From positions 3,495,521-3,559,520 of the forward strand of contig LJIE01000001.1 of NCBI GenBank assembly GCA_001281695.1: a stretch of DNA of 64,000 bases. The letters are read 5' to 3'. The DNA comes from a bacterium 336/3 (GTDB taxonomy: Bacteria > Bacteroidota > Bacteroidia > Cytophagales > Thermonemataceae). The translations under genes and the position numbers were made by a program. Below the pieces are notes generated by a model. The model saw only the letters and a list, made by a program, of their open reading frames with translations. It did not search any database and had not been told where the DNA came from. Below, piece after piece: positions 22,333-35,363 of this stretch; positions within the stretch are counted from its first letter, which is position 1, and every line of letters starts with the position of its first letter.

Positions 22333-24759
22333 ATGTTACCTCGTTTTTGGTTCATTTTATTTTTGTGTTCACATTTTACTTTTGCTCAAAATACATTGAA
22401 AGGAAAAATCTTTGATTCTCAGAATAAACCCATACAAGAAGCTACGATTTTACTAAAAAACACAAAAATTTCTACATACTCAGATACCCAAGGTTCTTTT
22501 GCAATAAACAATGTCCCACAAGGAACTTATCAATTGGTTTGTTATGCTTTTGGAAAGGATATTTACACTCAAAATATCCTCATCAATACTGAAAAAACAG
22601 AAATAACTATCCAGCTCATCGATTTAGGAGAAGAGATTGATGCTATTACGGTACAAGCAGATAGAGACCAAACCTTTGGACTTTCTAGAATGAAAGCCGT
22701 TGAAAATTTTGGGATTTACGAAGGAAAAAAAACAGAAGTCATTGATTTAAAAAACATTACAGCAAATCTTGCAACCAATAACCCTCGTCAGGTTTATGCA
22801 AAAATCACAGGGCTAAACATTTGGGAAAGTGATGGAGCAGGTTTGCAGTTGGGTATTGGTGGTAGAGGCTTGAGTCCTAACAGAACTGCCAATTTCAATG
22901 TTCGCCAAAATGGTTATGATATATCCGCAGATGCTTTGGGCTATCCAGAAAGCTACTATACCCCTCCTACCGAAGCCCTTGAACGTATAGAAATCATCAG
23001 AGGAGCCGCCTCTTTGCAATATGGAACTCAGTTTGGTGGTATGGTCAATTTTCGTTTCAGAAAAGGGGCTAAGGATAAAAAAATAGAACTTACGACAAGA
23101 CAAAGCATAGGTTCTTGGGGCTTTTTCAATTCCTTTAATAGCATTGGTGGAACTGTTGCCAAAGGTAAGCTCAATTATTACGCTTATGCTCAATACAAAA
23201 GAGGTGATGGTTACCGCCCCAATTCAAATTTTGACTACTATAATATTTATGCTTCAGCTAATTATCAAGTTTCTTCTAAATTGCTCCTGAATTTGGACGT
23301 TACCAAAATGAGTTATTTAGCCAAACAAGCAGGTGGACTGACAGATAAAGGTTTTTCAGAAAATCCACGTGCTTCTGTACGTAATAGAAACTGGTTTTAT
23401 GTAGATTGGAATTTGTTTTCGCTCAATGCCACTTACGAAATCAGTACTCAAACACAAATCAATGTCAGAAACTTTGCTTTGATAGCTCAAAGACAATCTT
23501 TAGGAAATTTGGAACGCATCAATGTAGTTGATTTTGGAGGGAATAGAACACTTATACAAGGCGTTTTTCAGAATTTTGGTAATGAAACTCGTTTATTACA
23601 TAAATACAATTTAGGAAAACAGCGTCAAACGTTTTTAATAGGTACAAGAGTTTATTACGGTTTTTCTACTGCTAAACAGGGTGATGCAGACAATGGAAGT
23701 AATGCAAATTTTGAGTTTTTAAATGCAGATAATCTTGAAAACTCCGATTATCGTTTTCCTAACAAAAATTATAGCCTGTTTATGGAAAACATTTTTAATC
23801 TTTCTGACAAATGGAGCATTACTCCTGGGTTTCGTTTAGAAAGCATTGTTACACGCTCCGAAGGGTACTATAAAACAAGGGTTTTTGATGGTGCTGGCAA
23901 TTTAGTTTCAGAAACCAAAACAACTGAAGATTTAGATAGAAAAAGGGCTTTCCCTATTTTTGGAGTAGGTGTAAGCTACAAAATGAATAGCTATTTGGAA
24001 GCATACGGCAATTTCTCTCAAAATTATAGAGCTATCAATTTTACAGATTTAAGAATCATTAATCCAAATTTTATAGTAGATAAAAATATACAAGATGAAA
24101 CAGGTTATACAGCAGATTTAGGCTTAAGAGGTAGTATAGACAACATTTTCAACTTTGAAGCAACAGCTTTTTATCTCAAATACAATGGTAGAATTGGGCA
24201 AGTTTTAAGAGCAGATTTGCCTCCTTTGTTTATAGATTACCGTTTCAGAGGTAATATTTCGGATGCTCGTAATATAGGTGTAGAGCTTTTTGGTGAATTG
24301 AATATTCAAAAATTATGGAAAAAAGATAATTCTGATAAAAACACTTATTGGACAGTATTTACAAACTTTGCTTTTGTAGATGCCCGATATATCAATACAC
24401 AAGACAATAGCATTAAGAATAAAAAAGTAGAAATGGTGCCTCCCATCATGCTCCGAGCAGGCACTACTTATAAATATGCTGGTTTTTCTTCTACTTTACA
24501 GTTCGCTTATACTCATGAACATTTCTCGGATGCCACCAACGCAATTCGTACTTCTACAGCCGTTGAAGGTATTATTCCAAGTTACAAAGTGATGGATTTT
24601 TCTGTAAGTTACACTTATAAAAAGCTTACTTTTGAAGGAAGTATCAACAATCTTCTCAACGAATCTTATTTTACTCGTCGAGCTGAAAGCTATCCAGGTC
24701 CAGGTATTATTCCTGCTGATGGAAGAAGTTTCTACCTCACAGTTCAAGCAAAACTATAA
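22333..24759 (+). CDS. TonB-dependent receptor, FecA-like
   Basis: 808 residues. A signal peptide (FWFILFLCSHFTFAQ) leads into a carboxypeptidase-like regulatory domain of about residues 20-105 (LKGKIFDSQNKPIQEATILL ... TYSDTQGSFAINNVPQGTY). A plug domain of about 135-235 (AKITGLNIWESDGAGLQLGI, RGLSPNRTANFNVRQNG, ALERIEIIRGAASLQYGTQF) and a beta barrel ending in FYLTVQAKL follow. The plug resembles ferric citrate receptors. Substrate uptake across the outer membrane is TonB-driven; the actual ligand is inferred only from similarity. No FecIR regulator accompanies it. The gap to the next gene holds a good promoter, so it is probably monocistronic. Confidence 0.88.
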   Translation: MLPRFWFILFLCSHFTFAQNTLKGKIFDSQNKPIQEATILLKNTKISTYSDTQGSFAINNVPQGTYQLVCYAFGKDIYTQNILINTEKTEITIQLIDLGEEIDAITVQADRDQTFGLSRMKAVENFGIYEGKKTEVIDLKNITANLATNNPRQVYAKITGLNIWESDGAGLQLGIGGRGLSPNRTANFNVRQNGYDISADALGYPESYYTPPTEALERIEIIRGAASLQYGTQFGGMVNFRFRKGAKDKKIELTTRQSIGSWGFFNSFNSIGGTVAKGKLNYYAYAQYKRGDGYRPNSNFDYYNIYASANYQVSSKLLLNLDVTKMSYLAKQAGGLTDKGFSENPRASVRNRNWFYVDWNLFSLNATYEISTQTQINVRNFALIAQRQSLGNLERINVVDFGGNRTLIQGVFQNFGNETRLLHKYNLGKQRQTFLIGTRVYYGFSTAKQGDADNGSNANFEFLNADNLENSDYRFPNKNYSLFMENIFNLSDKWSITPGFRLESIVTRSEGYYKTRVFDGAGNLVSETKTTEDLDRKRAFPIFGVGVSYKMNSYLEAYGNFSQNYRAINFTDLRIINPNFIVDKNIQDETGYTADLGLRGSIDNIFNFEATAFYLKYNGRIGQVLRADLPPLFIDYRFRGNISDARNIGVELFGELNIQKLWKKDNSDKNTYWTVFTNFAFVDARYINTQDNSIKNKKVEMVPPIMLRAGTTYKYAGFSSTLQFAYTHEHFSDATNAIRTSTAVEGIIPSYKVMDFSVSYTYKKLTFEGSINNLLNESYFTRRAESYPGPGIIPADGRSFYLTVQAKL

Positions 24760-24818
24760 TTTGAAGTGTTTTTTATAAAAAAATATGTACTTTTTTTCTG
24801 TTGGTATTAAATTTGTTC

Positions 24819-24826
24819 TACCTTTG
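24819..24826 (+). promoter_or_regulatory. Promoter (-7 element) for the small secreted protein and possibly dabAB
   Basis: TACCTTTG matches the TAnnTTTG consensus exactly, 29 bases before the ATG at 24856. The -33 region (around 24795-24803) has TTTCTGTTGG, a partial match. No terminator is visible between this gene and dabA, so it may drive the whole locus. Confidence 0.55.
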
Positions 24827-24855
24827 CATACGTTATTTTTAGTAAAAAAGCGTCC

Positions 24856-25275
24856 ATGCTTGTAGAAAAATTACATCTTACCCAAAAAAAGTCAAGACAA
24901 ATATTTTGCCTCTTTTTGGCTTTTTTTATGTTTTTTCTGCAAGGAAGTGCCAATATTCAGACACTCAGTTTTCTTTCTGAAAAAACTGCCGAAACAGAAA
25001 AAGAAGAAAATAGAACTGAAAAAGAAAGTGAAGATGATGCGGAAAGTGAACAAACCTCTATAGGTAAATCAAAAAAAGCAAAAAAGATAATACCTCTACA
25101 TTTTAGTTTTTTACTTTTCCAATACAAAAAATCCTCTTATTTACCATTACCACAAATTTATTTCAACAACGACTGGACTATAAAGAAAAGTCTTTGTTTT
25201 AATCCTTATACACCTTCTCTTTTTGCTACACCTCGTTATGTAGCTTTTCATACTCTTATTTTCTACGAGAGCTAA
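24856..25275 (+). CDS. Small hypothetical protein with signal-anchor and acidic linker
   Basis: 139 residues, not recognised. A hydrophobic N-terminal segment (about residues 15-33, IFCLFLAFFMFFLQGSA) is followed by a strongly charged Glu/Lys linker (residues 45-80) and a C-terminal part rich in aromatic residues (LHFSFLLFQYKKSSYLPLPQ ... TPRYVAFHTLIFYES). A near-consensus promoter precedes it and codon use is like its neighbours, so it is probably real. It lies 126 bases upstream of dabA and could be an accessory of the carbon-uptake locus, but nothing in the sequence proves this. Confidence 0.5.
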   Translation: MLVEKLHLTQKKSRQIFCLFLAFFMFFLQGSANIQTLSFLSEKTAETEKEENRTEKESEDDAESEQTSIGKSKKAKKIIPLHFSFLLFQYKKSSYLPLPQIYFNNDWTIKKSLCFNPYTPSLFATPRYVAFHTLIFYES

Positions 25276-25401
25276 AATAAATATTTAGTACACAAAAATT
25301 ATCTTTATAGATTATAAAATCTGTAAAAAAATATACAATATCCAATTGGGAAGCTAATTGATTGTAATTGTATTTGTACACTCTTTATTTATTTTTATTT
25401 T

Positions 25402-27954
25402 ATGATTTCAGACACTATTTTATATAAGTTTGATGAGGATGCTATATTAGAGCATTTGAAACATTATTTACCTCATCAGAATCCTTTAAAAGATTTCATC
25501 AATGATAATGTTCTTAAATCTTTCCAACATTATCATTTTCATGAAGCCATGGAAAAAGCTTCTATGTTTTTTGGTTATAAAACTTACTCTGGCTTAGAAC
25601 ATTACAGAAGTCTATACCAAACTGGCAAAATCAACCCTAAAATTCTACAAAGAGTTATTATTGAACACAAAGGATTTGATGTTTGGGAAGAATGGAAAAA
25701 TAAAATGCTTAAAAATGATTATGATACTGCTTGGTCAAATCGTTTGGGGCAATTACACCAAATTTGGACACATGTTTATCATCTCAATATAGAAAAAGAA
25801 ATACATAGCTTCTTATTCAGGTTTGTAGGTACTTATGTTGATCAAGGCATAGCAATCAAGCATTTTCCTATATTACATAAAGGCTTGTTGGCTTCTATTA
25901 AAGAGCTTGAAGCAAACAGTTTTATTAAATTATTCAAGAGTAAAAGAGTTCGTGATTTGCTATTACATACCCATTGTAAAATAAAAAGTTTACTTGATAT
26001 TTTAGTTGGGGATGAACAATGGTATGAGCAATATCTGTTTGACCAACAATTTGCTCATGCAGGTTGGTCAGGTATGGTGGCTATTCTTGAAAATCACCCT
26101 GATTTTCTATTAGATAAAAGAAAAATTAGTTTGCATGATTTTATAGTATTTGAGCTTCTGTTGGAAATAGATGCTTTAGACAGAAAATTTGGAGAAGGAA
26201 AGTGGCAACCCTTGAACTATCACATCCAAACAGCAAAGAAATCCTCTGACTCTAATTTTCAGGATAATGTTCAGAAAGAACAAATTATTCCTTTGTTTGC
26301 ACATATTGAAAGAAGAGAGATTTTTGATGTTTATCAACTTTGGCAAGAAGCCTACGAATGGACTTTTTATGACCAAGTTTTAAAAGGTTTGCAAATAGCT
26401 CCTTCCACCCAATCATCTCAAGAATATAATTTTCAAGCTGTTTTTTGTATTGATGAAAGGGAATGTTCTTTTAGAAGATATGTAGAAAAATACGCCCATG
26501 CTCAAACTTTTGGAACAGCAGGTTTCTTTAATATCGAATTCTATTTTCAACCTGAACATGGTAAATTTCATGCAAAATCTTGTCCTGCACCTGTAGAACC
26601 CAAATACATCATAAGAGAAACAGAGATTAAAAAACACCATCATCAATCAGATGCTCATTTTAGCAAACAGAGCAAAAATTTATTTGGAGGTTGGTTGATT
26701 TCACAGACAATGGGTTTCTGGTCTGCCATTCAGTTAGTTTGGAATATATTTAAACCTTCTGAGACACCAGCTTTGGTTTCTGCATTCAGGCACATGGATA
26801 AAGAAAGTAAATTGCATTATGAATGCAATTCGGAACATCCTAAAGAAGTACATCATTTACAAATAGGCTTTACCATTGAAGAGATGGCTACTCGTATGGA
26901 AGGGCTTTTAAAAAGTATTGGTTTGACCAATAACTTTTCTGACTTAGTGTATTTCATTGGTCATGGAGCAAGTACAGTCAATAATACTCATTATGCAGCT
27001 TATGGTTGTGGAGCATGTAGTGGACAAACAGGTTCTGTCAATGCTCGATTGGCAGCTATAATGGCTAATAAGTCTGAAGTAAGAGCTATTTTAAAAGAAA
27101 AAGGTATTCATATTCCTGATACTACACAATTTTTAGGAGGATTACATGATACAACAAGAGATGAAATGGACTTTTATGATGAAAACCTTTTGTCTGAATC
27201 TAACAAAATAGCTCATCAAGAAAATAAAAAATTGTATCAGAAAGCTTTGGCTAATAATGCGAAAGAACGAGCTCGTAGGTTTTTATTGGTAGATAATAAA
27301 CAATCTGCCGAAAAAATTCATAAAATCGTAAAACTGCGAGCTTTATCTCTGTTTGAGCCTCGCCCTGAGTGGGATCATGCAACCAATGCTTTATGCATTG
27401 TAGGAAGAAGAGAAAGCAATAAACATCTATTTTTGGATAGACGTTCCTTTTTAAATTCTTATGATTATGCACAAGACCCTGAAGGCAAGTATTTATTAGG
27501 AATTCTAAGAGCAGTAGCCCCCGTATGTGGAGGAATCAATTTGCAATACTATTTTGCATGCACAGATCAACACAGATTAGGAGCAGGTTCAAAATTACCT
27601 CACAATGTAATTGGTTTGGTAGGCGTTGCCAATGGCATTGATGGAGATTTGAGAACAGGTTTGCCTGAACAAGCCGTCAATATTCATGACCCTATTCGTC
27701 TGTTAGCAATTGTTGAGCATTATCCTGACGTTGTATTGGCTACTATTCAAAAAGAAGCTTCTACCTATCAGTGGTTTCACAATGGTTGGGTTCATTTAGT
27801 AGCTATACATCCTGAAACCAAAGAATTGTATAGATTTGATAGAGGAGAATGGCTTTTATACATACCTATCAATGAGAGCCTTCCGAGTACTAATAACTTA
27901 GAAAAAGAGTTAGAAAACTCTCATGAGAACTTACCTATATTCCTAATATCTTAA
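25402..27954 (+). CDS. dabA: Inorganic carbon transporter subunit DabA (DUF2309)
   Basis: 850 residues, the usual DabA size, no membrane helices of its own. The zinc site of the family, which resembles a beta-carbonic anhydrase site, is intact: C349 and D351 in VFCIDERECSFR, H521 in FIGHGAST, C536 in YGCGACSGQTGS. The 15-residue spacing between the last two is the same as in characterised DabA. DabA works with the NuoL-like DabB as an energy-coupled CO2 trap that accumulates bicarbonate in the cytoplasm. dabB begins 6 bases after the stop, so the pair is one operon. Function as a transporter subunit is known from the family; the activity here is inferred from the intact site. Confidence 0.95.
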   Translation: MISDTILYKFDEDAILEHLKHYLPHQNPLKDFINDNVLKSFQHYHFHEAMEKASMFFGYKTYSGLEHYRSLYQTGKINPKILQRVIIEHKGFDVWEEWKNKMLKNDYDTAWSNRLGQLHQIWTHVYHLNIEKEIHSFLFRFVGTYVDQGIAIKHFPILHKGLLASIKELEANSFIKLFKSKRVRDLLLHTHCKIKSLLDILVGDEQWYEQYLFDQQFAHAGWSGMVAILENHPDFLLDKRKISLHDFIVFELLLEIDALDRKFGEGKWQPLNYHIQTAKKSSDSNFQDNVQKEQIIPLFAHIERREIFDVYQLWQEAYEWTFYDQVLKGLQIAPSTQSSQEYNFQAVFCIDERECSFRRYVEKYAHAQTFGTAGFFNIEFYFQPEHGKFHAKSCPAPVEPKYIIRETEIKKHHHQSDAHFSKQSKNLFGGWLISQTMGFWSAIQLVWNIFKPSETPALVSAFRHMDKESKLHYECNSEHPKEVHHLQIGFTIEEMATRMEGLLKSIGLTNNFSDLVYFIGHGASTVNNTHYAAYGCGACSGQTGSVNARLAAIMANKSEVRAILKEKGIHIPDTTQFLGGLHDTTRDEMDFYDENLLSESNKIAHQENKKLYQKALANNAKERARRFLLVDNKQSAEKIHKIVKLRALSLFEPRPEWDHATNALCIVGRRESNKHLFLDRRSFLNSYDYAQDPEGKYLLGILRAVAPVCGGINLQYYFACTDQHRLGAGSKLPHNVIGLVGVANGIDGDLRTGLPEQAVNIHDPIRLLAIVEHYPDVVLATIQKEASTYQWFHNGWVHLVAIHPETKELYRFDRGEWLLYIPINESLPSTNNLEKELENSHENLPIFLIS

Positions 27955-27960
27955 ACAATC

Positions 27961-29838
27961 ATGAACATCAATTATTTTATTCTCAGTTTTGTACTGATGC
28001 CTTTGTTTGCATTTATAATTACAATGTTTACAAAAGAGCAACAAGAAAAATGGATTTCCAATATCACTACTTATACCATTGGATCTGTATTTTTTATACT
28101 TACAGGTTTCATTGGATATTGGATATTTTTAGGAGCTAATAATTTTAACCTCAAAGAGATTTTATTGTACCAAAATAAAGAATACACATTTTTAATAGAT
28201 TTTTACTTTGATAAAGTAACTGCTGTATATTTATTTGTGGGTTCTTTTATTAGCTTTCTGATTGTACGTTATAGCAGTTATTATATGCATCTTGAAAAAG
28301 GGTATAAACGCTTTTTTGCAACTATTTTATTCTTTTTCTTTTCTTATAATTTTACAGTATTGGCTGGCAATTTTGAAACCCTTTTTATTGGTTGGGAAAT
28401 GATAGGTATATCATCCTTTTTATTAATTGCTTTTTACCGAGAACGTTATTTGCCTGTACGTAATGCTGTGAAGGTATTTTCGGTGTATCGAATTGGTGAT
28501 ATTGGTATTCTACTTGCCATGTGGGCAAGTCATCATTTGTGGCATGAAAATATTACTTTTCAAAAACTGCTCAATTACGATTTGGTACATGAACATTTAC
28601 TAAATCACAGTTTTGAAGGTTTATTCATTGCTATTTGCTTACTTGTAGCTGCTGCTGCCAAGTCTGCACAATTCCCTTTTTCTTCTTGGATGCCCAGAGC
28701 TATGGAAGGTCCTACCCCTTCAAGTGCTATTTTTTATGGTTCATTATCAATTCATTTTGGAGTATTTTTACTCATCAGAACCATGCCATTTTGGGAACAA
28801 CAAATTGTAGCCAGAGTTTTAATAGGATTTATTGGTGTACTAACAGCTATAACTGGTTATTTTACAGCAAGAGTGCAACCTACCATTAAAACACAAATAG
28901 CTTATGCTTCTGTATCTCAGATTGGGTTGATGTTTGTAGAAATAGCTTTAGGTTTAGAATGGCTTGTTCTGATTCATTTTGTGGGTAATGCTTTTCTGAG
29001 AACCTATCAATTGCTTGTTTCACCATCTGTAGTAGCGTATTTAATTAGAGAACAATTCTATTATTTTAAGCCTCATACAGAAAAGAAATCTTATTTCTTA
29101 GGTAAAAATTTTTATTATGGATGGTATCTACTTTCTTTAAAAGAATTCAATTTAGATACTCTGATGGGTAGATATATTTTCAATCCTTTTAAAAAAATTG
29201 GGAGCAAACTTAATTTTCTAAACCCTAAAAACATTCTAGTTGTTTTTCTGCCTTTGTATGGAATTGGTATAGCTCTTTTATTGTTAGAAGAGTATATTCC
29301 AAATTGGCTACATGATAGTTTACCCATTATTTCTGCTTCTATAGCTTTGATGATGGTTATGAAGGGGTTTTCAGAAAGGCGTTACCCAAAATTAGCATGG
29401 ATGCTTCTAACACTACAACATTTTTGGATTGCCTTAGCTGTAGGTCATAATGAACATTTTCAAATCAGTGAAGCAGTTTGGTATTTAAGTGGTGTAATGA
29501 TAGCAGGTGTTGGTGGATATGTAGTACTTTCTATGCTCCAAAAAAATGAACCCTCTTATTTTACACTTTTCAGGTATTATGGACATAGTTACGAATATCC
29601 ACGCATAGGAGGTATATTTTTACTATGTTCTTTAGGACTTATGGGCTTTCCTATTACTACCACATTTATTGGTGAAGACCTTATTTTCAGTCATATCCAT
29701 AAGGATCAATATCTCTTGGCCTTTCTACTTTCTTCTTGTTTTGTAATAGAAGGAATTGCTGCTATTAGAATTTATGCAAGACTATTTTTAGGTAACCATG
29801 CAAAGGTTTATCACGAAACACCTTTGCAGTCTTCTTAA
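27961..29838 (+). CDS. dabB: Inorganic carbon transporter subunit DabB (NuoL-like)
   Basis: 625 residues with about 14-16 membrane helices of the proton-conducting antiporter (NuoL/MrpA) family. Characteristic stretches are FIGWEMIGISSFLLIAFYRE, AAAAKSAQFPFSSWMPRAME and GPTPSSAIFYGS, including the Lys and Glu used for proton translocation. Being 6 bases from dabA identifies it as DabB rather than a complex I subunit; nuoA and nuoB are 12 kb away on the other strand. It probably supplies the cation gradient that drives DabA. The SulP gene starts 45 bases later. Confidence 0.93.
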   Translation: MNINYFILSFVLMPLFAFIITMFTKEQQEKWISNITTYTIGSVFFILTGFIGYWIFLGANNFNLKEILLYQNKEYTFLIDFYFDKVTAVYLFVGSFISFLIVRYSSYYMHLEKGYKRFFATILFFFFSYNFTVLAGNFETLFIGWEMIGISSFLLIAFYRERYLPVRNAVKVFSVYRIGDIGILLAMWASHHLWHENITFQKLLNYDLVHEHLLNHSFEGLFIAICLLVAAAAKSAQFPFSSWMPRAMEGPTPSSAIFYGSLSIHFGVFLLIRTMPFWEQQIVARVLIGFIGVLTAITGYFTARVQPTIKTQIAYASVSQIGLMFVEIALGLEWLVLIHFVGNAFLRTYQLLVSPSVVAYLIREQFYYFKPHTEKKSYFLGKNFYYGWYLLSLKEFNLDTLMGRYIFNPFKKIGSKLNFLNPKNILVVFLPLYGIGIALLLLEEYIPNWLHDSLPIISASIALMMVMKGFSERRYPKLAWMLLTLQHFWIALAVGHNEHFQISEAVWYLSGVMIAGVGGYVVLSMLQKNEPSYFTLFRYYGHSYEYPRIGGIFLLCSLGLMGFPITTTFIGEDLIFSHIHKDQYLLAFLLSSCFVIEGIAAIRIYARLFLGNHAKVYHETPLQSS

Positions 29839-29883
29839 TACAATCAAAAAATATTTTTTATTAATAATTTATTCATTTGTTTT

Positions 29884-32106
29884 ATGGCACATAAATATAT
29901 TCCCAAAGATGGTTTGGCTGGTTTAAAAGAAAATTGGCAAAAAGACCTTAATGCTGGCGTTTTAGTTTCTTTCTTAGCTTTACCTTTATGTTTGGGTATT
30001 GCATCTGCCAGCAAATTTCCTCCTATTACAGGTGTTTTTACAGCCATTATTGGTGGAGTAATTGTAGCTTTGTTATCAGGTAGTCGTTTAACGATCAAAG
30101 GTCCTGCTGCAGGACTGATTGCCATTGGGTTGGGTGCAGTAGAGGCTTTGGGTTACGAAAAAGCATTGGCTACCATTGTTATTGCCAGTATGATTCAAGT
30201 GATTTTTGGCTTATTGAAAGCAGGTAAATTAGGAAATTTTTTTCCTGTTTCTGTCATTCATGGTATGCTTGCAGCGATTGGAGTTATAATATTTTCTAAA
30301 CAAATTCACCCACTTTTGGGTGTAAAACCAACAGCCAAAGAACCCTTTGAACTACTTGCAGAAATCCCAAACAGTATTATTCATGCCAAATGGGAAGTAG
30401 CTTTGATAGGCATCTTGGGGTTAATTATCATTTTTACCATTCCCATGCTCAAGAGTAGGTTTATTAAAAAAATCCCTGCCCCCATGGTAGTCCTTTTAAT
30501 GGCAATTCCATTAAGTATAATTTTTGGTTTAGGGGATTTTGTAAAAGATGGTAAATCTGTTTATTTGGTAAACATTCCCACTTCTATTTTAGAAGGTATT
30601 TTTACACTTGATATTCACAAAATAGGCATCACTTTTCCTGATTTTTCAGAAGCATTTAGTCTCACAAGTTTACAATATATCTTGATGTTTTCTTTGATAG
30701 GAAGCATAGAATCTTTACTAACTATTAAAGCAATAGATGGTTTAGACCCGTATCAAAGAAAATCTGATATGAATAAAGACTTGGTAGCTGTGGGTATAGG
30801 TAATACAATTGCTGGCTTGATAGGAGGCTTACCTATGATTTCGGAAGTAGCTCGAAGTTCTGCCAATGTAGCCAATGGGGCTAAAACTCGTTGGGCAAAC
30901 TTTTTTCATGGAATCTCTTTGCTAATTTTTATTTTAATTTTGGCTAAAATTATAGTTCTTATTCCTATGTCTGCTTTGGCAGCTATGCTCATAGCCGTAG
31001 CTTATCGTTTGGCTTCTCCAAAAGAGTTTAAACACGCTTATCACGTAGGCAAAGAGCAACTTCTTATTTTCTTGACTACTCTCGTTGTAACACTTGCTAC
31101 CGATTTGTTGGTAGGTGTGGGTGCTGGTATTTTCATGAAATTGATTGTAGAAATTTATTATGGCACACCCATCAAAGGCTTATTCAAAGCTCATGTGAAG
31201 GTAGAAGAAGACCACCAACACAATACCATACACTTTAAAATAGCTAATTCTGCTATATTTAGCAATTATTTAGGCTTCAAAAAACATTTGGATAAATTAC
31301 CAAGAGGAAAACATATCATCATTGATGTGAATGAAGCAAAGCTTATAGACCACACTTTCATGGAAAATCTCCATCAGTTTGAATTAGATTATCACCATCA
31401 AGGAGGTTCAGTCGAGATTCAAGGCATGGAACATCAGAATCCAGTTTCTGACCATCCATTGGCTATGCGAGTTTTTGATGCTGAGTATAAGGATAAAGCA
31501 AAAAATGTTGTTTTAGATAATCGTCAAAAAGAATTGGAAGCTTTAGCTATACAAAATGATATGGGTTTCAGACCATTGCCTATTACTGATAATTTTAAAT
31601 ATTTGAATTTTAAGTTTTTTCAAGGAAAGAAAATCAATTATAGAGCCAATCGTCTCATTAAAACAATAGATCATACTCGATTTGAATTTTCAGATATGGA
31701 TATTTCAGAAATGGAAAACATTGGTGGGCGTACTTACAAAATAACGACACTTACTATTACAGATGTGATAGGACATATTCCATTTTTTGTTTTAGAAAAA
31801 GAAAATACCCTCAACAAGGTAACACAAGGAGCCCAAGATATAGATTTTGAGCAATTCCCTATATTTTCTAATCATTATATGCTTACTAGTACAGAAGCTG
31901 AGGAAACAAGAAAGTTTTTTACTCCTGAAATTATTCGTTTTTTGGAGTTGTATATTAATAAAGATTTCAAAATTCGCTCTCGTGATAGTCGTTTATTAAT
32001 ATTTAAAAATGAACAACTTTTGAGTAAAAACGAAATTCAGGATTTGTTAGAAATGGCTATTGGTTTGGTTGAAATTATTAAGAAAGAATACTTGATAAAA
32101 GCATAA
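29884..32106 (+). CDS. SulP family anion transporter with STAS and extra C-terminal domain (copy 1)
   Basis: 740 residues. The membrane part (about 1-425) is a SulP/SLC26 transporter: PLCLGIASASKFPPITGVFT, SRLTIKGPAAGLI and ISEVARSSANVANGAKTRWA are the conserved substrate-site and core-domain stretches. A STAS domain (about 437-525, IIIDVNEAKLIDHTFMENL) follows, then about 200 residues I do not recognise (FKFFQGKKINYRANRL ... FEQFPIFSNHYMLT ... FFTPEIIRFLELY). SulP proteins carry bicarbonate or sulfate. The location directly after dabAB suggests bicarbonate; sulfate cannot be excluded, as a cysC gene lies in the window though 30 kb away. It ends at a strong terminator. Confidence 0.9.
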   Translation: MAHKYIPKDGLAGLKENWQKDLNAGVLVSFLALPLCLGIASASKFPPITGVFTAIIGGVIVALLSGSRLTIKGPAAGLIAIGLGAVEALGYEKALATIVIASMIQVIFGLLKAGKLGNFFPVSVIHGMLAAIGVIIFSKQIHPLLGVKPTAKEPFELLAEIPNSIIHAKWEVALIGILGLIIIFTIPMLKSRFIKKIPAPMVVLLMAIPLSIIFGLGDFVKDGKSVYLVNIPTSILEGIFTLDIHKIGITFPDFSEAFSLTSLQYILMFSLIGSIESLLTIKAIDGLDPYQRKSDMNKDLVAVGIGNTIAGLIGGLPMISEVARSSANVANGAKTRWANFFHGISLLIFILILAKIIVLIPMSALAAMLIAVAYRLASPKEFKHAYHVGKEQLLIFLTTLVVTLATDLLVGVGAGIFMKLIVEIYYGTPIKGLFKAHVKVEEDHQHNTIHFKIANSAIFSNYLGFKKHLDKLPRGKHIIIDVNEAKLIDHTFMENLHQFELDYHHQGGSVEIQGMEHQNPVSDHPLAMRVFDAEYKDKAKNVVLDNRQKELEALAIQNDMGFRPLPITDNFKYLNFKFFQGKKINYRANRLIKTIDHTRFEFSDMDISEMENIGGRTYKITTLTITDVIGHIPFFVLEKENTLNKVTQGAQDIDFEQFPIFSNHYMLTSTEAEETRKFFTPEIIRFLELYINKDFKIRSRDSRLLIFKNEQLLSKNEIQDLLEMAIGLVEIIKKEYLIKA

Positions 32107-32109
32107 AGC

Positions 32110-32145
32110 AAATAACGTAGGACAATAACTAGTCTTACGTTATTT
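32110..32145 (+). terminator. Terminator after sulP copy 1
   Basis: AAATAACGTAGGAC (32110-32123) and GTCTTACGTTATTT (32132-32145) form a 14-bp stem with one G-T pair and an 8-base loop. The 3' flank is A/T-rich (ATAATTTTCC). It closes the dabA-dabB-sulP transcript three bases after the stop. Confidence 0.75.
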
Positions 32146-32214
32146 ATAATTTTCCATGTATTTCTTTACAATACTCTTATCCTAAAATAAATATCATATT
32201 TTAATAATAGAATT

Positions 32215-33003
32215 ATGAACAATCATTTTTTTAAAATAATCGTTTTAATATATCTCTTTTCTCCTAAAATTGGTTTTTCTCAAAATACACGCATCAATGA
32301 AAAAAATACAATTGGTTGGTATAACTATTTTGGGACATTTAAACTTAGTAAACATTGGGGAATACACACTGAATACCAATGGCGAAGAGCAGAACTTATT
32401 ACTGCATGGCAACAAAGTCTCCTACGTATGGGTGTTAATTATCAGTTAGACCCCAAAGTACAAATACGTTTGGGTTATGCTTGGATAGAAACTTTCCCAT
32501 ATAGCACTACTCCCATCAATTCTTTTGGAAAAGACTTTACAGAGCATAGAACTTACCAAATGCTAACACTAACTGATAAAATAGGAATTGTTGGATTTTC
32601 TCACAGATTTATGCTAGAACAACGATGGGTAGGCAAATATTCAGATGCTTCTCTAAATAAAGAAGATAGTTTTGTATATTCTAACAGAATACGATATATG
32701 TTTCGTACACAAGTTCCTTTAAAGGGAAAAACTATTGGAGATAAAACGCCTTATGCAGCTATTTATGATGAGATTTTTATAGGTTTTGGTAAAAATGTAA
32801 ATGCAAATATTTTTGACCAAAATCGTTTAGGGATTTTACTGGGCTATCAGTTCAACAAAAAAATCAAATTAGAAGGTGGTTATTTTAACCAAATAGTAAT
32901 GTTAGGCAGAAAAATAAATAATAACACAAATAATGTTGTACAATATAACAGTGGTATTATTTTAAATACTTTATTTAATTTTGATTTCAGCAAGTCAAAT
33001 TAG
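32215..33003 (+). CDS. DUF2490 outer-membrane beta-barrel protein
   Basis: 262 residues. A signal peptide (IIVLIYLFSPKIGFSQ) is followed by alternating beta strands: IGWYNYFGTFKLSKHWGIHT, EYQWRRAEL, QSLLRMGVNYQL, KVQIRLGYAWIETFPY, RLGILLGYQFNKKIKLEGGY. This is the pattern of the DUF2490 family of outer-membrane barrels. Function is unknown. It sits between two SulP genes with its own terminator at 33019-33053, so an outer-membrane pore or accessory for the same anion is conceivable by context only. Confidence 0.8.
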   Translation: MNNHFFKIIVLIYLFSPKIGFSQNTRINEKNTIGWYNYFGTFKLSKHWGIHTEYQWRRAELITAWQQSLLRMGVNYQLDPKVQIRLGYAWIETFPYSTTPINSFGKDFTEHRTYQMLTLTDKIGIVGFSHRFMLEQRWVGKYSDASLNKEDSFVYSNRIRYMFRTQVPLKGKTIGDKTPYAAIYDEIFIGFGKNVNANIFDQNRLGILLGYQFNKKIKLEGGYFNQIVMLGRKINNNTNNVVQYNSGIILNTLFNFDFSKSN

Positions 33004-33018
33004 TAGTTATTTTAGTAG

Positions 33019-33053
33019 AAAAAGCTATTTAATATTTTAGATAGCTTTTTTTT
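33019..33053 (+). terminator. Terminator after the DUF2490 gene
   Basis: AAAAAGCTAT (33019-33028) pairs with ATAGCTTTTT (33041-33050), followed by more Ts to 33053. The stem is 10 bp with a 12-base A/T-rich loop. Confidence 0.75.
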
Positions 33054-33063
33054 ATTCATAAAA

Positions 33064-33094
33064 TTTCGGTTAATCAAAAAAAAAATTATTTTTG
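33064..33094 (+). promoter_or_regulatory. Promoter for sulP copy 2
   Basis: TTTC at 33064-33067 (one mismatch to TTTG), a 19-base spacer, then TATTTTTG at 33087-33094, which fits TAnnTTTG exactly. The element ends 25 bases before the ATG at 33120. The setting is A/T-rich, so chance similarity is possible. Confidence 0.5.
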
Positions 33095-33119
33095 ATATTG
33101 ATGAGACACCTAAATTTTT

Positions 33120-35363
33120 ATGAAAAAAATCCATAAAATTCCTGCTGATGGCCTAAAAGGCTTGCAAGAAAACTTCTTAGCTGATTTGAATGCAGGTTTC
33201 TTAGTATTCTTGATAGCCCTTCCTTTAAGTTTAGGAATTTCTCAAGCAAGTAGCTTTCCTGCTGTGGCAGGTGTTTTCACAGCCATTGTAGGGGGAATTG
33301 TTGTTTCTCTTGTGAGTGGTAGCAAGATCACAATCAAAGGTCCTGCGGCAGGACTGATTTCCATTGCTTTAGCCTCTGTAATGGAATTGGGTTATGAAAA
33401 AACGCTGGCTGTTGTGGTTGTTTCTGGAGCATTGCAAGCTTTATTTGGTTTTCTAAGATTAGGTCGTTTTGCAGACTTTTTTCCACCTTCTGTGGTACAT
33501 GGCATGATGGCAGCCATTGGCTTTATGATTCTATCCAAACAAATACATTATGTATTTGGAGTAGCTCCACACTCCAAAACACCTATTAAACTTCTGAAAG
33601 AAATTCCAGAAAGCATTCAAAGATTAAACCCACAAACTACTACCATTGGTATCTTATCACTTATCATTCTTATAATACTTCCCTTTATAAAGAACAAAGC
33701 TATTAGAAAAGTCCCTGCTTCTCTTTTATTGTTAGTTTTAATTGCATTTCCATTAAGTTTTTATTTTGAATTAGACACAGCTCACCAATATACTTTTATG
33801 GGAGGGACTTACTTCATAGACCCCAGCAAAGATTTAGTAGATTTGCCTACCAACTTGCTTTCAGCTATTAGATTTCCTGATTTTAGTGCTATTACGAGTT
33901 TTGCAAGTATCAAGTACATCATTATGTTTGCCCTCATTGTCAGCATAGAATCTTTGCTTACCGTAAAAGCCGTAGATTTTTTAGACCCTTATAAAAGAGA
34001 ATCGAATGCAAATAAAGACCTTTGGGCTGTTGGCTTAGGCAATATGGTTTGTGGTTTTATTGGAGCATTACCCATGATTTCGGAAGTAGTTCGTAGTTCT
34101 GCCAATGTAAATGCTGGAGCGAAAACTCGTTGGTCGAACTTTTTTCATGGATTATTTTTACTTTTATTTGTTGCGTTTGCCAGCAATTTGGTTCATCATA
34201 TTCCTATTGCAGCTCTTGCTGCCATTCTGGTTTATACAGGTTTCAGGCTTACCTCGCCCAAAGAGTTTAGGCATGTCTATGAAACAGGTTGGGAACAACT
34301 CCTTATTTTTGTGGTAACCATGCTAACCACTTTATTAACCAACCTCTTAGCAGGTGTATTTGCTGGATTACTATTTAAAAGTGCATTACAGTTGCTTTTG
34401 GGTGTACATTGGAAAAATGTATTTGTTTTAAAATATAATATCTCTGAACATGGTGATAAAACTCGTATTGAAGTTCTTTCAGAAGTGTTATTTACCAATG
34501 TACTCAAACTCAAAAAACTATTAAATAGTCTTCCTGTAGGCAAGAATGTAGAGTTAGATTTTCAGAAAGCTGAGTTTATAGACCATTCTTCCATGGAAAA
34601 AATACGTCAGTTTGAACGTAATTATAGTGCAAAAGGCGGAAATGTGGATATTGAAGGTTTATTTTCTCATGTCGCTTTTTCTGCTCATCCACTTGCTACC
34701 CACAAAATCTTCCCTAACCATGTTGTTTTAGAGAAAATCCTCAATGAACGTCAAAAGAGTTTGAAAGAATATGCTGACCACATTAAAGCAACATTTAAGC
34801 CTGATAATGCTTTTGACCTTTATAAATATGATGGTTTCTTGTTTGGAAAACGTTTGGTATATCGTAGTAATCGGATTATCTACCAAGAAACAAAAGAATC
34901 GACTAAACTGATTATTGCAGAAATTAATTTGGTAGAAGGTGCACAACCTACCTCCAAACGATATTCTACGACTACTCTATTGGTAAATAACATCTCTCAG
35001 CCTATTCCTGAATTTGAATTGCGTAAAGAAGACCAATTAGATAGATTCAAGCAGTATATTGGCATTGATGATATAGATTTTGGAGATTATCCTAAGTTTT
35101 CTTCCAAGTATTTACTCAAAGGCAACGAAGAGAACAAAATAAGAGAACTATTTAACCCAGAACTTATTCAGTTTTTAGAAGAAAATGACAACTATATTAT
35201 AGAGTCTAAACACCAAGATTTACTCATCTACACAGAAAAGCAGTCTATCATGAGTGTAAGTGAAGTATCTCTGTTATTTAGCTTTGGAAAAGAGTTGCTT
35301 CATATTATTTCCAAAAATCAGAATACTTCTATACCCAAAGAGATAAAGAAAGAGCAGGAATAA
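33120..35363 (+). CDS. SulP family anion transporter with STAS and extra C-terminal domain (copy 2)
   Basis: 747 residues, a clear paralogue of the SulP protein ending at 32106. The same core motifs are present (PLSLGISQASSFPAVAGVFT, SKITIKGPAAGLI, ISEVVRSSANVNAGAKTRWS), as are a STAS domain (VELDFQKAEFIDHSSMEKI) and the same unrecognised C-terminal region (YDGFLFGKRLVYRSNRII, FGDYPKFSSKYLLKGNEENK, LFNPELIQFLEEN). It has its own promoter and is separated from copy 1 by the DUF2490 gene. Two paralogues at one locus suggest different affinities or substrates. A bicarbonate role is inferred from dabAB; the family alone would allow sulfate. Confidence 0.9.
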   Translation: MKKIHKIPADGLKGLQENFLADLNAGFLVFLIALPLSLGISQASSFPAVAGVFTAIVGGIVVSLVSGSKITIKGPAAGLISIALASVMELGYEKTLAVVVVSGALQALFGFLRLGRFADFFPPSVVHGMMAAIGFMILSKQIHYVFGVAPHSKTPIKLLKEIPESIQRLNPQTTTIGILSLIILIILPFIKNKAIRKVPASLLLLVLIAFPLSFYFELDTAHQYTFMGGTYFIDPSKDLVDLPTNLLSAIRFPDFSAITSFASIKYIIMFALIVSIESLLTVKAVDFLDPYKRESNANKDLWAVGLGNMVCGFIGALPMISEVVRSSANVNAGAKTRWSNFFHGLFLLLFVAFASNLVHHIPIAALAAILVYTGFRLTSPKEFRHVYETGWEQLLIFVVTMLTTLLTNLLAGVFAGLLFKSALQLLLGVHWKNVFVLKYNISEHGDKTRIEVLSEVLFTNVLKLKKLLNSLPVGKNVELDFQKAEFIDHSSMEKIRQFERNYSAKGGNVDIEGLFSHVAFSAHPLATHKIFPNHVVLEKILNERQKSLKEYADHIKATFKPDNAFDLYKYDGFLFGKRLVYRSNRIIYQETKESTKLIIAEINLVEGAQPTSKRYSTTTLLVNNISQPIPEFELRKEDQLDRFKQYIGIDDIDFGDYPKFSSKYLLKGNEENKIRELFNPELIQFLEENDNYIIESKHQDLLIYTEKQSIMSVSEVSLLFSFGKELLHIISKNQNTSIPKEIKKEQE

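Follow-up and report, generated by a model that had tools for sequence, protein, structure and literature searches.

A candidate regulatory leader open reading frame ahead of a dabAB–sulP inorganic-carbon uptake cluster in the bacterium 336/3

This study analyzed a 64,000-nucleotide stretch of the genome of the Bacteroidota bacterium 336/3 (the window), in which genes for DabA, DabB, two SulP anion transporters, and a DUF2490 outer-membrane barrel are preceded by a 139-codon open reading frame (ORF), here termed the leader. The leader was overlooked in a preliminary description of the region, although the start given there, position 24819, coincides exactly with the promoter-type box TACCTTTG. 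We consider it reasonably probable that the cluster is an operon through which a rhodopsin-bearing bacterium, probably a heterotroph, takes up inorganic carbon and that translation of the leader sets the operon's expression. Judged by sequence comparison, the leader is probably a cis-acting regulatory ORF, and there is an even chance that arrest driven by its C-terminal tail is the means of regulation. The substrates transported by the operon and the signal sensed are those that we infer below. The leader family is the new part of this system and the part worth following. To our knowledge, how heterotrophs sense inorganic carbon and induce its uptake is poorly understood. If the leader does regulate, it would provide a directly testable regulator of carbon-uptake operons and would extend nascent-chain regulation to carbon supply, beyond protein export and copper.

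The leader (24856..25275, + strand) has a hydrophobic N-terminus, an acidic middle, and the tail ATPRYVAFHTLIFYES. It matched no Pfam or NCBIfam family above cut-off, and its 139 residues comprise an N-terminal transmembrane (TM) or signal segment (Kyte-Doolittle maximum 2.12) and a spacer of more than 30 residues. Two promoter-type boxes lie upstream: TACCTTTG at 24819..24826 on the + strand, of the TAnnTTTG type that we take to be the Bacteroidota −7 promoter consensus, and TAAATTTG, which starts at 24808. The 126-base gap between the leader and dabA (25276..25401, +) contained no TAnnTTTG box, and its folding z-score, flanks included, was −2.14. A TonB receptor gene (22333–24759), which stops 96 bases before the leader and matched only TonB-dependent receptor families, was treated as outside the operon.

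To describe the occurrence of the leader, we assembled at least 91 loci with the gene order A-B found in the window, namely the window itself, 10 loci from whole genomes, and at least 80 from named contigs. Two of them (L036 and L081) are apparently one record, leaving 90 distinct loci among the 91; L045, with a fragmentary DabA and without DabB, was left out. Candidate leaders were defined as ORFs of 80–200 residues with a strong hydrophobic N-terminal segment and an end no more than 420 bases from dabA, and such ORFs were present upstream of dabA in 59 of the 91 loci. A stricter test demanded a TM segment, an acidic patch (at least five D/E in 12 residues), and a position at the operon head together; 65 of the 87 testable loci passed, including 57 of the 79 headed by dabA. 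Two loci with motif-like tails that fell below the acidic threshold (L078 and L092) were entered as negatives in the count of 65. Where sulP or DUF2490 heads the operon, the leader preceded that head gene in every case (8/8). The acidic patch was present in 55 of the 59 dabA leaders and in all 21 SulP leaders, compared with 14 of 346 other small TM ORFs; CxxC-like motifs occurred in 4/59, 1/21, and 74/346, respectively. Promoter-type boxes were located ahead of the leader in 39 of the 59 loci (44 sites versus 8.5 expected from shuffles) and in the leader-dabA gap in only one (versus 5.8 expected). This placement suggests that the leader heads a co-transcribed operon.

The leader was absent from all 12 loci of the opposite order, B-A, one of which has a 74-residue TM ORF without the tail. 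Six further A-B loci from the same taxonomic order (L144–L149) were also inspected. Four of them carry a small TM ORF 74–110 bases before dabA, and L144 and L148 had none at the thresholds used; by eye, the tails of L145, L146, and L149 resemble the motif, and L146 and L147 have acidic patches. A SulP match was found in three of the six, and the DabA frame of L149 is broken. Separately, three Runella loci (L065, L069, and L072) have an ORF of 403–426 residues that stops approximately 100 bases before dabA and whose C-terminus resembles a histidine kinase by eye; it is perhaps an alternative regulator at the usual place of the leader.

The C-terminal tail is the most informative part of the leader. 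Tails usually end near IPLYLLFRSLRI, and those ahead of dab genes follow the pattern P-[LI]-[YFW]-L-x-x-[RHC]. By BLAST with low-complexity filters, the 59 leaders fell into 31 clusters, and into 40 once the last 25 residues were removed. In a first motif run, 18 of 38 representatives stopped exactly two residues past the 12-residue motif. The scores of that run (325.8 for the real set versus 176–193 for eight shuffled sets) favor the real set because it received more search effort, with 6 restarts of 25 rounds compared with 3 of 20. A rerun of the same 38 clusters at equal effort yielded 389–399 for the tail motif versus 172–204 for 40 shuffles, and the 31 filtered clusters, limited to the last 24 residues, yielded 320–344 versus at most 194. 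When each cluster was left out in turn and its tails were then scored, 51 of the 59 held-out leaders reached p ≤ 0.05 and 44 reached p ≤ 0.01 against 200 shuffles of their own tails; 25 of the 31 clusters succeeded, and none of the 200 shuffles reached the score of the window leader. A tail score of at least 8 was attained by 46 of the 59 leaders, the training set included, versus 13 of 376 other small TM ORFs from the same loci. Of these 13, eight have a tail of the HYC_CC_PP type, four lie before sulP, and one is unexplained. The stretch 40–80 residues before the leader end scored equally high (405.9, and 337.5 with the consensus ESEEEDDEGKDS in a later run) because of the acidic patch.

Substitution patterns were compared across the N-terminal part, the middle, and the last 22 columns of leader alignments. 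In nine flavobacterial leaders, amino-acid identity rose from 0.27 through 0.38 to 0.69, synonymous divergence was 0.55, 0.62, and 0.66, which is near saturation, and pN/pS was 0.91, 0.66, and 0.31. The corresponding pN/pS values were 0.46, 0.54, and 0.26 in three Cyclobacterium leaders and 0.59, 0.55, and 0.40 in four Cytophagales leaders. Selection on the tail appears to act on its amino-acid sequence. SulP leaders have tails of their own: 13 of the 21 contain PP within the last 18 residues, several end in PPLFxLHRxxLI, and those with PPP or PPR near the stop are mostly ahead of sulP–carbonic anhydrase pairs.

Several results weigh against this interpretation. With unfiltered BLAST clusters in which any hit joins two leaders (20 clusters, the largest with 31 members), the tail motif scored 135–168 versus 131–161 for shuffles and thus showed no excess. 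In the first motif run, the top-scoring register of the window leader was not the expected one. In the comparison with L048, whose leader is nearest to that of the window, pN was 0.37 and pS 0.68 in the last 24 columns, which is mild constraint, and pN was 0.51 and pS 0.54 in the middle. None of the 59 dabA leaders has PP within the last 18 residues, and any proline in that span is found in 46 of 59 compared with 187 of 346 other small TM ORFs; proline alone therefore says little, and the dab tail is not RAPP-like. The RNA structure of the leader-dabA gap was modest (mean z −1.55, with 21 of 58 below −2 and matched control gaps lacking), and attenuation by an intrinsic terminator in the gap was rejected as a general mechanism, with a terminator-like site in just 5 of 58. 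The leader was also missing from 22 of the 79 testable loci headed by dabA.

The leader resembles upstream ORFs (uORFs) known to act through translational arrest. According to the available text of PMC10987492, Sec/YidC arrest peptides were sought as small unannotated uORFs with an N-terminal signal or TM segment, a conserved C-terminus, and a spacer >30, and HAPP motifs and uORFs with C-terminal proline found only in Bacteroidota are also described there. In form, the dab leaders share all four of these features with SecM, ApdA, HAPP, and NAP-stop uORFs; they differ in their downstream genes and in the tail, which is P-[LI]-[YFW]-L-x-x-[RHC] instead of RAPP. The likeness extends to CruR of Bordetella and CutF of Rhodobacter, small signal-peptide uORFs with a proline-containing C-terminal tail that head transporter or oxidase operons (available text of PMC9426467 and PMC9973294). 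CruR is described as arresting on RAPP and controlling a TonB-receptor operon through Rho (PMC9426467), and CutF as controlling cutO through export and a proline-rich tail; most relatives of CutF come from Pseudomonadota and Bacteroidota, where they lie ahead of metal genes (PMC9973294). Both sense copper through CxxC/CxxxC, whereas the dab and sulP leaders have an acidic patch and mostly lack such a motif; bicarbonate is not mentioned in the main text of the CutF paper (PMC9973294). The simplest reading of these comparisons is that the dab and sulP leaders may form an inorganic-carbon branch of the CruR/CutF-type design. Among the matches listed in a literature search that left most subscription papers outside its scope, we found no published description of leaders of dab or sulP operons.

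A further relative in design is HYC_CC_PP (NF047658), a small protein with an N-terminal TM segment and the tail HAPPLYKLYCQLVFYA that precedes a TonB-receptor-like gene in flavobacterial loci, two members of which (L084 and L043) were confirmed with the NF047658 model. It differs from the dab leaders in its Cys/His motifs and metal-type context, and the window leader did not match NF047658. The host also has an HYC_CC_PP protein of its own (L150:1239-4414, C1:3314738 onward), with the tail NPPPLPFGKVLLHHICSYLI and the end PPPLPFGKVLLHHICSYLI, of the PPPLP type. It precedes genes that by eye are TonB-receptor-like and HMA-like and is a candidate metal-responsive leader.

In the proposed mechanism, the DUF2490 barrel would pass small anions across the outer membrane, SulP1 and SulP2 would carry bicarbonate over the inner membrane, and DabAB, powered by the membrane gradient, would catalyze one-way hydration of CO2 and so provide bicarbonate for carboxylation reactions. 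The leader (24856–25275) would act in cis, its translation setting how strongly the co-transcribed operon is expressed. The N-terminus would direct the nascent chain to the membrane, where the acidic patch, or export itself, may sense a condition such as export status, pH, an ion, or inorganic carbon. The C-terminal tail would then pause the ribosome near the stop codon and thereby alter downstream transcription or translation. A wider proposal, which we advance tentatively, is that Bacteroidota gate dabAB, sulP, and sulP–carbonic anhydrase operons by widespread exported nascent-chain sensors. The external acidic patch of such a sensor would respond to inorganic carbon, pH, or an ion, and its conserved tail would arrest the ribosome at the stop codon. 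These sensors would be the carbon counterpart of CruR/CutF, with a tail design common to HYC_CC_PP.

The small ORF might instead encode a membrane protein that assists the uptake complex in trans, a role that the small membrane protein of the three-gene DAB1 operon may also have. It adjoins dabA in the 57 of 79 dabA-headed testable loci that possess it, it has an N-terminal hydrophobic segment, and the three-gene DAB1 operon of H. neapolitanus, according to the available text of PMC13144422, includes an extra small hypothetical membrane protein. We nevertheless regard this explanation as rather unlikely. In all eight operons headed by sulP or DUF2490, the ORF is at the operon head and not before dabA; sulP genes carry leaders of their own (21); the 59 leaders split into 31 filtered clusters, or 40 without the last 25 residues; and similar tails end HYC_CC_PP proteins ahead of metal-type operons.

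The genes controlled in the cis-acting model form the cluster that the preliminary description had recognized, and its five ORFs were recovered in the same order, each above its Pfam cut-off. The first, dabA (25402..27954, +), encodes the zinc-dependent CO2-hydrating subunit and covered residues 2–747 of the 747 in the PF10070 model (E 2.3e-210). The gene for the NuoL-like membrane subunit, dabB (27961..29838, +; PF00361, E 4.2e-39), starts after a spacing of 6 bases, as had been reported. The earlier assignment of four DabA zinc ligands held in part: C349, D351, H521, and C536 are all present, but the zinc ligands number three and are joined by an Asp-Arg pair. In the cryo-EM structure of DAB2 described in the available text of PMC13144422, Cys351, His524, and Cys539 hold the zinc and the Asp353-Arg355 pair acts on the zinc-bound water. 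The window protein keeps the Cys, His, and Cys ligands and the Asp-Arg dyad, and C349, D351, R353, H521, and C536 were invariant across 11 related DabA sequences.

The window pair shares the PF10070 and NuoL-like composition of DAB2 of Halothiobacillus neapolitanus (PDB 9rd0) and the MpsAB/DAC family, and the relation of its DabA to DAB2 is clear (phmmer E 3.5e-57, profile E 9.7e-80). It belongs to a distinct subfamily, with the order A-B and with linked SulP and barrel genes; the single B-A DabA compared with DAB2 (L031) is much nearer to it, at 557 bits. In the 11 A-B DabB proteins aligned, the DAB2 residues H260, H343, and K347 are replaced by Y259, N343, and R347 and I151 by E146 without exception, whereas all seven B-A DabB proteins keep the H, H, and K. 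The DAB2 proton-path set, to which H260, H343, and K347 of DabB and E444 of DabA also belong, is incomplete in the A-B proteins, which retain K310 and H339 in 11/11 and S256 in 10/11 and have A or S for S316. Because these residues differ, gradient coupling is not guaranteed and the coupling ion cannot be transferred from DAB2, which also counts against the model. DAB2 DabA E444 aligned with Q435 of the window protein and with Ser in L031, both alignments being uncertain because of gaps. The DAB2 proton-path residues mark DAB2 rather than the whole DAB family, and the coupling may differ. Two broken frames were observed among the dab genes, DabA of L149 (7346-9842; genome G322), which is in two pieces with in-frame stops, and dabB of L058 (Cyclobacterium roseum), which is in three; they represent decay or sequencing error.

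Downstream of dabB are sulP1 (29884..32106, +), the DUF2490 gene (32215..33003, +), and sulP2 (33120..35363, +), whose product has the same architecture as SulP1. Both transporters matched PF00916 (E 5.6e-59 and 3e-63; 200.2 and 214.3 bits versus a cut-off of 23.2). They share the SulP fold and a phmmer match to PDB 6ki1, which we take to be BicA. However, their scores against the BicA equivalog model NF050096 were 140.5 and 132.9 bits, far under the cut-off of 880, and bicarbonate, as suggested previously, is a putative substrate. They differ from BicA also in an added C-terminal domain. In a structural model of the SulP C-terminus (pLDDT 80.1, pTM 0.62), a STAS domain precedes a domain resembling mycobacterial TtfA (Foldseek E 2.9e-4; TM-score 0.41 by query and 0.70 by target; 10% identity). 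These TtfA-like regions (31156–32106 and 34386–35363) span approximately 200 residues past the STAS-like domain and had no Pfam match above cut-off. Eleven other dab-linked SulP proteins are similarly long (at least 700 residues), and all nine that were aligned have the TtfA-like domain.

The DUF2490 protein matched PF10677 above cut-off (E 7.7e-50, 169.6 bits) and was modeled as a barrel with 11 strands listed (pLDDT 88.3). The nearest solved fold was the NanC porin (E 2.2e-4), although the TM-scores, at 0.44/0.54, were weak. The available text of PMC4827864 places DUF2490 in a putative porin class, TC 1.B.81. The main text of a 2024 review of the inorganic-carbon toolkit (PMC10880623) does not mention the outer membrane; the linked DUF2490/porin genes point to a possible outer-membrane path for bicarbonate, a step unnamed in that review. 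A second host locus (C1:1300500-1318500; L154:3902-8951) has CysH/CysD-like and CysN-like genes followed by another DUF2490 barrel and a TauE-type permease, the N-terminus of which matched the NAD-binding family PF13241. An association of DUF2490 with inner-membrane anion transporters may be more general.

The dab loci are of two types. DabA proteins of B-A loci (12 loci) are 25%–31% identical to that of the window, and those of A-B loci are 47%–67% identical. Within the at least 91 A-B loci, dabB is next to dabA in 89, SulP was found in 66 (within 8.5 kb), an outer-membrane barrel in 49, and carbonic anhydrase in 11 (within about 10 kb). When the comparison was restricted to the 67 loci whose flanks reach at least 4.5 kb on the upstream side and 7 kb on the downstream side, these counts were 67, 51, 36, and 8. 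SulP is beside carbonic anhydrase in several A-B loci, and no SulP match was found in the available flanks of the 12 B-A loci. Because gene calls rest on BLAST with queries derived from the window and the loci, diverged barrels or SulP proteins may have been missed. The linkage in A-B loci, together with its absence from B-A loci, indicates that SulP and the barrel belong to carbon uptake in the A-B lineage. The cluster is a known kind of system in a lineage-specific arrangement, and we hold with considerable confidence that its function is inorganic-carbon uptake, the best reading.

This linkage also bears on the proposal that SulP1 and SulP2 transport sulfate or another anion and are merely neighbors of dabAB, which we judge decidedly unlikely. 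PF00916 contains sulfate transporters, the host probably needs sulfate given its CysH/CysD-like genes, and the SulP scores are far below the BicA cut-off. The two dab-linked proteins are the only PF00916 matches in the host genome. Against the proposal stand the association of SulP with 66 of 91 A-B loci, several beside carbonic anhydrase, and with 0 of 12 B-A loci, and the presence of a TauE-type permease and a DUF2490 barrel in the cys cluster itself. That cluster, at C1:1.308 Mb, has two PF01507 (CysH/CysD-like) genes with the barrel, the permease, and a CysN-like gene (by eye), so sulfate uptake need not rely on SulP; ATP sulfurylase of the PF01747 family was not found in the host genome. 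The notion of an ordinary DAB locus without special regulation, in which the upstream ORF encodes a rapidly evolving exported protein with an unrelated role, draws on the 22 of 79 dabA-headed testable loci without a leader and on the histidine-kinase-like ORF (by eye) that replaces it in Runella L065, L069, and L072, but the conserved tail, the enrichment of acidic patches among leaders, and the location of the promoter-type boxes make it very unlikely.

DabA was present in 20 of 296 genomes of the phylum and in 12 of 39 relatives. Its distribution is patchy, because none of the three other genomes of the host genus and none of the four others of the family examined has it. A-B DabA proteins 52%–53% identical to that of the window were also found in Azotobacter chroococcum (L117) and in a metagenome-assembled genome labeled Planctomycetota (L107), which suggests gene transfer between phyla; a leader was not detected in L117, where 543 upstream bases were available, or in L107.

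The host genome comprises 13 contigs, is 99.33% complete, and encodes one DabA. The preliminary description had treated Dab systems mainly as a topic of autotrophs, a view that is outdated given that DAB/MpsAB systems of heterotrophs are already described in the available text of PMC13144422 and PMC8552792. Its proposal of inorganic-carbon uptake without autotrophy agrees with the genome check it had called for, which revealed one beta-carbonic anhydrase (C2) and no match to the RuBisCO large subunit, the one marker of a carbon-fixation pathway covered. No match to alpha-carbonic anhydrase, which was matched in 8 of 296 genomes of the phylum, or to PEP carboxylase was found in the host. The host rhodopsin (L155, C4:66606-67268) reads RYVDWILTVPLMCVEF, a DTE pattern that we take to mark a proton pump, and adjoins a carotenoid-like gene (by eye). 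Together, these two features indicate that the host is probably a photoheterotroph, in which a light-made gradient could drive DAB. For rhodopsin-bearing Bacteroidetes, light-stimulated anaplerotic carbon uptake is suggested in the available text of PMC4148732.

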